IMG/VR virus record: IMGVR_UViG_3300023118_000031
Coordinates: 1-20,018 of that record
Length of the DNA stretch: 20,018 nucleotides
DNA from: a virus
Direction: 5' to 3' (one strand)
Shown in pieces: positions 8,684 through 13,569 of this stretch. How positions within the stretch are numbered: the first letter of the stretch is position 1; every line of letters starts with the position of its first letter. The notes beneath the pieces are model-generated. The model was given only the letters and a program-made list of their open reading frames with translations. It made no database searches and was not told the origin of the DNA. A program made the translations under genes and the position numbers.

Positions 8684-9370
8684 TCAGGCCGCGTCAGTCT
8701 TCGGCTGTGAGGATGGCGAATGCTGCCGCTGCCACTCGCGGAACCTGCCCATTTCCAGAGGCTTGGTATCTGTCCACCCGATTGGCCAGCCCATCAGCCA
8801 CTCGTGTATCTCCGGGGAAGGTCTGCCAAACACTCGCCGAAATTCTCTCCCGGAGGGCCATTTCTGCATTGAATCGGCGCAGTAATTCGCTTTTGTTGTC
8901 GGTGTATGCAAGTAGCCAGTATCTTTCCCGAATGTGGTCAGCACCCATGTCTGCCGCAGATAGGGCAATGGCTCTGGTTTTGTAACCCATAGCCCGCAGA
9001 TCTTCCGCCGCCACTTCAATTGCTTCTGCTGAGACGTTTTCGGCGAAGACAAGCCAGGGAGTGACATCTGCCACGACTCGCCGCATCTCAGGCCAAAGGT
9101 TTTCAGCATTGTTGCGTCCAGATGCGGCAGTGCTGAAGGCCTGGCATGGAAATCCCCCAGAAATGAGGTCAACAACGCCACGCCATGGCTTTCCATCAAA
9201 AGTTCGAATGTCATCCCAGATCGGGAACGGCGAAAGCACTCCGTCATTTTGGCGCTGCACGAGTACCCGCTGGGCATGCTGTCCGTGCTCAACGGCGCAA
9301 ACCGTTCTGAATCCAAGCAGGTGGCTGGCAAGTAGTCCGCCGCCAGCGCCTGCGAAAAGAGCCAGCTCAT
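8684..9370 (-). CDS. Overlapping second-frame ORF within the methyltransferase gene
   Basis: A 228-aa frame starts at the ATG 4 nt inside the methyltransferase (9370; GGAG lies 9 nt upstream) and ends 10 nt beyond its stop. It begins MSWLFSQALAADYL and has R.SRSGMTFELL near 50 and TPTTKANYCADSMQKWPS near 157-173. Near 190-213 it has EWLMGWPIGWTDTKPL followed by FREW. From memory, these blocks occur in a family of annotated phage and prophage proteins (MSWL start, 'PTPTA', 'WLMGWP.GWTDLKPL'), not in the methyltransferase family. Long chance ORFs do exist in this GC-rich window, so openness alone proves little; the motif resemblance is the argument. Function is unknown. Confidence 0.4.
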   Translation of the reverse strand: MSWLFSQALAADYLPATCLDSERFAPLSTDSMPSGYSCSAKMTECFRRSRSGMTFELLMESHGVALLTSFLGDFHARPSALPHLDATMLKTFGLRCGESWQMSLPGLSSPKTSQQKQLKWRRKICGLWVTKPEPLPYLRQTWVLTTFGKDTGYLHTPTTKANYCADSMQKWPSGREFRRVFGRPSPEIHEWLMGWPIGWTDTKPLEMGRFREWQRQHSPSSQPKTDAA

Positions 9371-9374
9371 TCAT
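8694..9374 (-). CDS. DNA cytosine-5 methyltransferase (short phage type)
   Basis: The protein is 226 aa and transfers a methyl group from S-adenosylmethionine to C5 of cytosine in DNA. The start is the ATG at 9374, with GGAG 5 nt upstream. Motifs appear in canonical order: FAGAGG (residues 7-12, SAM binding), E29 after strand 2, GGFPCQ (73-78, catalytic Cys77), ENV (112-114), RERYW (149-153) and GNGQVP (207-212). At 226 aa it is much shorter than typical bacterial enzymes and has almost no target-recognition domain between motifs VIII and IX, as in many phage solitary enzymes. It probably protects phage DNA from host restriction. No cognate endonuclease is nearby. The same DNA is open in a second frame, annotated separately. 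Confidence 0.92.
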   Translation of the reverse strand: MNELALFAGAGGGLLASHLLGFRTVCAVEHGQHAQRVLVQRQNDGVLSPFPIWDDIRTFDGKPWRGVVDLISGGFPCQAFSTAASGRNNAENLWPEMRRVVADVTPWLVFAENVSAEAIEVAAEDLRAMGYKTRAIALSAADMGADHIRERYWLLAYTDNKSELLRRFNAEMALRERISASVWQTFPGDTRVADGLANRVDRYQASGNGQVPRVAAAAFAILTAED

Positions 9375-9398
9375 GATTGCTCCAATAGTTGAAGGGGA

Positions 9399-11315: not shown

Positions 11316-12026
11316 CTAGGCCGCCTGCGCGAAGGTCAAACGTTTATGGATTTGGCGAACTCGCTCAACATCGCCAGCACAGTACTTGGCGACATCATCA
11401 ATCCGTCCGGCTTGGACAAACTCCCAAACCTTGCTGCCGTCAATTTCGTCTTCGATCTCGCTACCCTTGGTAGCTATGCCGAACACCTTGCACAGCTTGT
11501 CCAGACTGACGGTGCCGCGAACGCCAGCCCATGCTGTCATGGTGTCGAACACTTCTGCCCCCCAAGGCTTGGCATCGAATGGAATAGATGCAGGAGGTCG
11601 AATACCCAGCATTACGGCGCGCTGGAAGATGAACCGCAGATCGAAGTTCAGGACGTTGTGACCAATAAACACCAGCTTGCCGGTCTGTCGCGTACCACCC
11701 AAAAGCTCGGCGCCGCCAGCCGTTTCGATGGCATTGAACAGGTTGAACAGAATTTCCCGCTCATTGTTCGGCCAATCTGCGCTGTAGAACGTCTGCGGGG
11801 CCTCATCGCCAATTGCGATGGATGCCACTGCGATATGGCCAAAAGCGCCGTCGAAGCTGGTTTTCAGCCAAGCCTCTTCGATCAGTGCAGGCTTTTCATT
11901 CAGTTCCCATGCGGCGATGGTTTCTGGTTTCTTGTAGTTGCCCGGCGCTGTAATACGCTCGGCGAGAATTTCTTTGATGCCCGGCGCTTGTCCTGGGATT
12001 GTTTCGATGTCGAGGTAAATGTTCAT
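11316..12026 (-). CDS. DEDDy-type 3'-5' exonuclease
   Basis: The protein is 236 aa. I chose the ATG at 12026 because GGTGG lies 5 nt upstream and the product begins directly with strand MNIYLDIETIPG; a GTG or TTG start a few codons earlier would consume that ribosome binding site. The DnaQ-like fold motifs are D6/E8 in LDIET (Exo I), D129 in GHNVLNFDLRF (Exo II) and Y215/D219 in KYCAGD (Exo III), the DEDDy pattern of PolB-type proofreading-like exonucleases. It should bind two metals and digest DNA 3'-5'. Beside the SSB-like and ATPase genes it fits a replication/recombination module. A leftward terminator-like hairpin lies just before it. Confidence 0.88.
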   Translation of the reverse strand: MNIYLDIETIPGQAPGIKEILAERITAPGNYKKPETIAAWELNEKPALIEEAWLKTSFDGAFGHIAVASIAIGDEAPQTFYSADWPNNEREILFNLFNAIETAGGAELLGGTRQTGKLVFIGHNVLNFDLRFIFQRAVMLGIRPPASIPFDAKPWGAEVFDTMTAWAGVRGTVSLDKLCKVFGIATKGSEIEDEIDGSKVWEFVQAGRIDDVAKYCAGDVERVRQIHKRLTFAQAA

Positions 12027-12036
12027 TCTGTCCACC

Positions 12037-12062
12037 AAAAGAAAGGGCGCTCGATGGCGCCC
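12037..12062 (-). terminator. Leftward rho-independent terminator before the exonuclease gene
   Basis: Read leftward, GGGCGC (12062-12057), a 6-nt loop, GCGCCC (12050-12045), then TTTCTTTT (12044-12037). It sits in the 67-bp gap between the SSB-like stop and the exonuclease start, so it would cut the leftward transcript unless read through. Confidence 0.65.
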
Positions 12063-12758: not shown

Positions 12759-13397
12759 TTATGCGGCTTTGGGAGCGTCGAATTGGTAGTAATCGCAGAT
12801 GGCGGCGTCGACGGCCGCCAGATCGTTGTCGATCATGTCGCTGTCGAACATCCCCATCGGGGCCTTGGTGGTGTCTGAGCCGTTGTTGCGTGTTGCGAAG
12901 TAGTGCTGGCCGTCTTGAATAACAGCTCGTAGGCAGATCGTTACAAGGCCTTCCAGGGTGATCTTGTCGTCGAGCATCTTGCCCACGGTCTTCATCTTGA
13001 TTTGCCCAGTCTCGCTCTCCTCTGTGTGGCTGAGGATGTAGACGCGCACATCGTCGGGCAGTTTGAGTAGGGCATCGAAAACGTCCCATGTGTGGCGGCC
13101 GATGTCGTTGAACTTGTCGTAGCCTTTTTCCTGGCTTCGACGCATGAACTCGTTGGCCAGCACGTACTGGTAATCGTCAATCACGATCATCTTCCGCCCG
13201 TTTGCTGCAGCCTTTGCGCTCGCCTGAATAATTCTTGCGTGGTCGTCGGTGACGAAGGGTTTCCAGTCCCCGGCGCCCTTGAATGGGAGCCGCTTGCCGA
13301 TCACTTGCACCAGGGCAACGTCGGCGGGCTTCATGTTTCGCAGTGACGTGCTTTTGCCGCTGCCTGATTTGCCGAGAATCAAAACGACTGTTGCCAT
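12759..13397 (-). CDS. Sak4-like RecA-fold ATPase (recombination)
   Basis: The protein is 212 aa. The ATG at 13397 follows GAGGT with 7-nt spacing and gives MATVVLILGKSGSGKST. The Walker A motif is GKSGSGKST (9-17), Walker B is MIVIDD (70-75), and a sensor-like SHTE lies at 123-126. The size and layout fit the phage AAA_24/Sak4 family of small RecA-like single-strand annealing ATPases. It should bind ATP and act with the SSB-like protein encoded directly downstream. Longer in-frame starts upstream belong to a separate small gene in another frame. Confidence 0.85.
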   Translation of the reverse strand: MATVVLILGKSGSGKSTSLRNMKPADVALVQVIGKRLPFKGAGDWKPFVTDDHARIIQASAKAAANGRKMIVIDDYQYVLANEFMRRSQEKGYDKFNDIGRHTWDVFDALLKLPDDVRVYILSHTEESETGQIKMKTVGKMLDDKITLEGLVTICLRAVIQDGQHYFATRNNGSDTTKAPMGMFDSDMIDNDLAAVDAAICDYYQFDAPKAA

Positions 13398-13407
13398 GAT
13401 GGCGACC

Positions 13408-13569
13408 TCAAATTGGTTGGTTATCCCACTGGCGCTCAATGCGGGCTTGTTCGATTTCGTATTCCTGACGCTGATCGCCAGTGAATTGCTGAGGTTGGAA
13501 CTCGCCCTCGACTGACCAGTGCAGTTGGGCCGCCTCTGTTGGCGTGACATATCGGCGTTCAGCAGACAT
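13408..13569 (-). CDS. Small phage protein of unknown function (53 aa)
   Basis: The ATG at 13569 is preceded by GGAG with 6-nt spacing. The product begins MSAERRYVTPTEAAQLHWSV and ends in a charged, Gln/Glu/Arg-rich helix (QRQEYEIEQARIERQWDN). It fits neatly between the ATPase gene (10 bp downstream) and a 44-aa ORF that it overlaps by 11 bp. Its coding character and ribosome binding site make it credible; no family is recognised. Confidence 0.6.
   Translation of the reverse strand: MSAERRYVTPTEAAQLHWSVEGEFQPQQFTGDQRQEYEIEQARIERQWDNQPI

Follow-up and report, generated by a model that had tools for sequence, protein, structure and literature searches.

A stretch of about 680 nt in a temperate phage encodes two proteins in different reading frames of one strand, and we hold it to be nearly certain that the two coding frames form a true overprinted pair. 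One frame, alpha, is a C5-cytosine methyltransferase, and the other, beta, runs in the +1 frame over almost all of it. The explanation that we favour, and consider probable as a whole, is that this overprinted pair is a two-subunit C5 methyltransferase that works in the manner of M.EcoHK31I; for its mechanistic part, in which alpha would be catalytic and beta would supply recognition and motif IX, the evidence leans the same way. In what follows, the window is the whole stretch of 20,018 nt of viral DNA that was analysed, and the features of the pair are collected in Table 1.

Table 1. Features of the alpha/beta pair, in window coordinates
Feature	Position	Strand	Description
alpha	8694..9374	(-)	C5-cytosine methyltransferase, 226 aa, ATG start, frame 0
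beta	8684..9370	(-)	+1 frame, 228 aa, ATG start 4 nt past that of alpha, open throughout
GGAG	9380..9383	(-)	likely common ribosome-binding site, judged from sequence
alpha motif I, FAGAGG	9339..9356	(-)	residues 7-12; every position invariant or near invariant in 71 relatives
alpha motif IV, catalytic PCQ	9141..9149	(-)	residues 76-78; invariant in 71 relatives
alpha motif VI, ENV	9033..9041	(-)	residues 112-114; E112 and N113 invariant in 71 relatives
alpha motif VIII, RER	8922..8930	(-)	residues 149-151; from the alignment of 71 relatives
variable stretch	8843..8897	(-)	usual TRD position of C5 methyltransferases; short, length-variable among relatives
beta motif IX-like block, EWLMGWPIGWT	8771..8803	(-)	residues 190-200; M193, P196 and W199 invariant, most others near invariant
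alpha motif X, GNGQVP	8739..8756	(-)	residues 207-212; same DNA region as the beta C-terminus

Both ORFs lie on the minus strand at the coordinates given by the first-pass annotation, which had described a methyltransferase frame of 226 aa and a +1 frame of 228 aa, 4 nt apart and behind one GGAG, and all of these were located as claimed. The overlap takes up ∼98% of the length of alpha. In the start region, TTGGAGCAATCATGAATGAGC, the GGAG stands 5 nt before the alpha ATG and 9 nt before the beta ATG, and from this arrangement a single GGAG likely serves both starts; among the relatives, 107 of 117 have a Shine-Dalgarno-like word at most 14 nt away from the alpha start. The window, which carries genes for an integrase, an S24 repressor and an antirepressor, is part of a temperate phage genome. 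A Pfam scan of ten window genes, which did not extend to several small ORFs nearby, showed no restriction endonuclease, and the methyltransferase therefore looks solitary. Upstream of it on the same strand are an AAA_24 ATPase and a PolB-type 3′-5′ exonuclease (window positions 12759-13550 and 11316-12038, minus strand), a neighbourhood that looks like the early recombination operon of a temperate phage.

The pair is not peculiar to the window. A scan of viral contigs with beta gave at least 536 relatives, of which the best 80 were used, and 80 further relatives came from a scan that used only alpha as query and so could not favour beta; in essentially all relatives from both scans the two frames are full-length and alpha starts 4 nt ahead of beta. 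The overlap thus recurs in hundreds of phage contigs, and our literature searches found this methyltransferase overlap described nowhere. Which frame was deposited differs between records: it is beta in Pseudomonas phage Shamal, and alpha in Marin and in Salmonella phage S9-5.

The openness of the second frame was compared with a null model in which the synonymous codons of alpha are shuffled within each gene. For the window gene the +1 frame was open in none of 500 synonymous shuffles, which carried 4.4 stops on average. In all 117 distinct relatives beta is open to near the end of alpha, and shuffles over these 117 homologues predict ∼4.8 stops and a chance of openness of 0.004 for each. When the test was repeated with controls, the longest +1 stretch measured 238, where 99 was expected, and P ≤ 0.01 was reached in 97% of the genes; for the flanking genes the values were 75 against 65 expected and 7%, in the +2 frame P ≤ 0.01 was never reached, and bacterial Dcm-type genes showed no consistent excess of +1 openness. 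Both frames of the pair are therefore open beyond what chance allows, as an overprinted pair should be. We did not use the raw identity of the second frame relative to shuffles as evidence, since the closed +2 frame reaches high values as well.

Selection was measured by classing substitutions as synonymous or nonsynonymous in each frame, over pairs that share no sequence and with a bootstrap over pairs, using our own script written after the idea of OLGenie with simple site counting. For beta, dNN/dNS was 0.64 (0.57-0.71) and dSN/dSS was 0.22 (0.14-0.29) over 51 independent pairs, and alpha is likewise under constraint (dNN/dSN 0.35). The same two ratios were 1.07 (0.96-1.17) and 1.13 (0.60-2.34) in flanking genes, 1.59 and 1.02 in the +2 frame, and 1.16 and 1.43 in bacterial Dcm (four pairs). 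Beta is under purifying selection, and, with the negative controls included, so are both frames of the pair. Moreover, the beta start is ATG in 117 of 117 relatives, while the alpha start varies over the same relatives (ATG in 71, GTG in 30, TTG in 11, or farther upstream) and the second codon of alpha is AAT, TAT or CAT, each of which preserves the beta ATG. Since the beta ATG is invariant while the start and second residue of alpha vary, this start is kept for beta and not for alpha. The claim of an overprinted pair made in the first-pass annotation is thus upheld by selection in both frames, by the controls and by the invariant second start.

The constraint is distributed unevenly between the two proteins. 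Selection on beta reaches its first 60 codons, and in the catalytic part and the last 48 codons alpha and beta are both constrained. In the variable stretch, over 53 pairs of relatives, alpha is unconstrained (dNN/dSN 1.04, 0.92-1.18) and beta is constrained (dNN/dNS 0.53, 0.37-0.70), and therefore beta matters at the position of the recognition domain.

Alpha matches the profiles PF00145 (E 1e-22) and phrog_363 (E 6e-52), and together with motifs I, IV, VI, VIII and X this identifies it as a C5-cytosine methyltransferase. Its predicted fold resembles M.HhaI and M.HaeIII (E 3e-12) over the large domain only, and the confidence of the model is low at residues 161-203 approximately. No TRD and no canonical motif IX were found in alpha, in which only ∼55 residues separate motifs VIII and X.

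In beta, the pieces that had been quoted from the second frame at first pass are all present, namely MSWLFSQAL (residues 1-9), TPTT (156-159), EWLMGWPIGWTDTKPL (190-205) and FREW (210-213). Its motif IX-like block aligned with motif IX of monomeric and split C5 methyltransferases with an hhalign probability of 93.5 and E 2e-7 over only 21 columns. The block also matches the one preceding motif X in Flux gp79, Dorothy gp72 and Gordonia Neville; the Neville methyltransferase is monomeric, and Flux gp79 and Dorothy gp72 are the second genes of split methyltransferases. Searches of Pfam and NCBIfam with beta gave no credible match, and among PHROG profiles it matches phrog_35493, phrog_26627 and phrog_1008. 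AlphaFold, run on beta by itself, gave a poor model (mean pLDDT 59), the best part of which is about residues 161-200 (pLDDT 84-90), and a comparison of the model with PDB folds gave no match. A PDB sequence search with the beta profile returned villin as its sole match (E 0.2), which was discarded.

Under the two-subunit reading, one mRNA with probably one ribosome-binding site would yield two proteins from nearly the same 680 nt. Alpha would be the catalytic lobe, with SAM binding, the PCQ nucleophile, and motifs I-VIII and X, and the C-terminal half of beta would be the part of a second subunit that gives the variable DNA-recognition region and the motif IX that alpha lacks. As a complex, the two would act as a solitary methyltransferase of the phage, one that modifies phage DNA and presumably shields it from host restriction. 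We infer that beta is translated, binds alpha and sets the specificity, and we propose this division of labour because of the pattern of constraint, the motif IX-like block of beta, and the presence of motif IX in the small polypeptide of M.EcoHK31I.

The two genes of M.EcoHK31I also overlap, in different reading frames. This two-polypeptide C5 methyltransferase (YGGCCR) has motif IX in the small polypeptide and the other catalytic motifs together with motif X in the large one, to which the recognition domain is also assigned by prediction (PMC3404938). The window pair resembles it in having a motif IX-like block, by a short match, in the second polypeptide. Unlike in M.EcoHK31I, the window alpha has no recognition domain, and the constraint on the variable region falls on beta, not on alpha; the overlap, moreover, is essentially complete, with starts 4 nt apart, and is recurrent in hundreds of phage contigs. 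By our comparison the pair would thus be like M.EcoHK31I in part, by its working principle, and we do not file it as a member.

A point against the two-subunit reading comes from Streptococcus phages, whose methyltransferases are monomers with motifs IX and X of their own in frame, and which nevertheless hold a selected +1 gene without motif IX (∼140 codons from ATG). Inside this +1 ORF dNN/dNS was 0.48 and dSN/dSS 0.23, compared with 0.96 and 0.74 outside. Because complete monomers carry such a gene, the supply of motif IX is not the whole reason for beta, and because a comparable nested protein exists there, the ∼150 N-terminal residues of beta, encoded over the catalytic lobe, probably serve a separate function. 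These observations are also what keeps alive the strongest rival explanation, in which beta is a real overprinted protein but no methyltransferase subunit: it would be an accessory that acts against restriction, for example, or that inhibits or regulates the enzyme, and the overlap would maintain it. In almost all of the loci displayed, the Streptococcus nested genes start with the ATG of codon 50, preceded by a conserved GGAG, and a few loci have a broken alpha and an intact beta, both of which suit an accessory protein. However, the window family has a segment at the recognition position and a motif IX-like block in beta and neither in alpha, which an unrelated accessory protein leaves unexplained, and hence we consider this explanation possible but unlikely.

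A fusion of the catalytic part of alpha with the recognition part of beta into one enzyme, by +1 ribosomal frameshifting, appears more doubtful still, and we give it little credence. It would account for the +1 relation throughout, and for Flux and Dorothy, whose second gene opens in the +1 frame shortly ahead of the end of the first and encodes the recognition region with motifs IX and X. In the window family, however, motif X returns to frame 0, where a single shift would miss it, and the invariant beta ATG in 117 of 117 relatives and the selection over the first 60 codons of beta fit independent initiation. Hardly credible, finally, is a shadow ORF, open and similar only through the underlying conserved GC-rich methyltransferase gene: any frame of conserved DNA seems conserved, and the closed +2 frame beats shuffles in identity, but chance openness and shadow similarity are rejected by the shuffles, the +2 frame, the flanking genes, Dcm and the Streptococcus regions outside the +1 ORF, which lack the signal or show a far weaker one, and the signal also appears in phage genes of the Paenibacillus and Streptococcus groups with 21-37 stops on average in the +2 frame, so that low stop density is not its cause. 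Homologues beyond chance shadows and the pattern of substitutions were thus both checked, and the results went against a refutation of the second frame.

The split methyltransferases of Flux (locus L358, 1006-2101) and Dorothy (locus L360, 1132-2221) are tandem genes, the second of which lies in the +1 frame and has the recognition region and motifs IX and X. In Flux gp79 the +1 frame extends upstream of the annotated start with beta-like sequence, and this start may have been annotated too late. Flux gp80/gp79 and Dorothy gp71/gp72 share the type of split of M.AquI, which has motifs I-VIII in one protein and the recognition region and motif IX in another. Their genes are in tandem with a short overlap, whereas the overlap in the window is near-complete, and motif X is in the second protein of M.AquI, Flux and Dorothy but in alpha of the window pair.

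Nested +1 genes are also found in other phage groups. In Paenibacillus phages the nested gene, like beta, lies in the +1 frame of a C5 methyltransferase, ends in a C-terminal block NPxxxExxMGFPIxWTD and has its +1 frame under selection; unlike beta, it begins 184 nt into a longer alpha (254-345 aa). Here dSN/dSS was 0.17 inside the ORF and 0.50 outside, and dNN/dNS gave no contrast (0.60 and 0.62), and when the Paenibacillus alpha was used as sole query, almost every relative retrieved had a long +1 frame. Sequence records of these phages carry the nested gene as 'internal gene' (Shelly gp56, Lily gp63 and Leyra gp62 of Paenibacillus larvae phages) or as a second methyltransferase, and the literature searched reports no function or selection for the internal genes. 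Tentatively, mycobacteriophage methyltransferases probably hold a related +1 gene as well: ShroomBoi-type phages have a long +1 frame whose openness exceeds chance in 80% of 15 genes, and five pairs from this group gave dNN/dNS 0.90 and dSN/dSS 1.29. In mycobacteriophage Llama (locus L359, 906-1665) the methyltransferase, one gene in relatives, is in two overlapping ORFs (74 and 75), a split that looks like a frame disruption. Vibrio phage Baybae (locus L364, 1273-2199) has a very divergent methyltransferase with a +1 open stretch of 262 aa and a motif IX-like end, SRWLMGLPPEWDD. A quickly built alpha tree places the phage groups that have a +1 gene apart from Dcm, with long branches and an unsure deep order, and the +1 gene may have had one or several origins, the tree being compatible with either.

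Two further suggestions of the first-pass annotation were not borne out. It had taken the second-frame relatives to be separate phage proteins, and these turned out to be the +1 frame of other C5 methyltransferase genes; and it had considered the gene as a common ancestor of two families, which finds no support, since almost all loci retrieved with the second frame carry a methyltransferase in the -1 frame of the same DNA and the families have thus not separated. Run against genomes, the beta profile gave matches in records named Pseudomonadota, Verrucomicrobiota, Phycisphaerae, Anaerolineales and others, and stand-alone second-frame genes were rejected, the methyltransferase being in the -1 frame at nearly all of 80 loci. 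At five of these 80 bacterial-genome loci (L180, L195, L201, L216 and L244) alpha has nonsense codons and beta is open, the codon in L180 falling right at the catalytic PCQ; these may be decaying prophages, or beta may be kept without alpha. The few prophages with a nonsense codon in alpha and an intact beta still show the alpha frame.

Databases keep the second-frame relatives as families of their own. The profiles phrog_1008, phrog_26627, phrog_35493 and phrog_16143 match beta or nested +1 proteins, the last one over its full length; the label is 'DNA methyltransferase' for two of them and 'unknown function' for the other two, the +1 location is unmentioned, and the proteins have no catalytic motifs. 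The Streptococcus nested gene (752-1174 in locus L366; loci L366-L444) matches phrog_16143 end to end (E 4e-82), and this family is named 'DNA methyltransferase' in PHROGs, yet the nested protein is without a catalytic motif.

To our knowledge, long same-strand overlaps with demonstrable selection are rare outside small viruses. Like viral overprinted pairs in general, the window pair has two proteins from one DNA stretch, both under purifying selection; it differs from typical ones in that it belongs to tailed dsDNA phages, involves a known enzyme, covers ∼98% of its length, and has a second product that is plausibly an enzyme subunit. It seems to us fairly likely that the +1 gene is a widespread and old component of the C5 methyltransferase genes of tailed phages, in phages of Pseudomonadota, Bacillota and probably Actinomycetota, also in enzymes that need no second subunit, with an undescribed N-terminal function, and that it took over the recognition domain and motif IX in some lineages only, the catalytic frame then dropping both. 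The overlap recurs in a well-understood enzyme class and in many unrelated phages, and gene callers mostly report one of the two proteins, now alpha and now beta. If our reading is true, hundreds of 'hypothetical' or misnamed phage proteins would gain an identity, a natural split methyltransferase would become usable as a tool, and the origin and specialisation of overlapping genes would be testable along a series from monomer with nested gene, through internal gene and full overlap, to tandem split.
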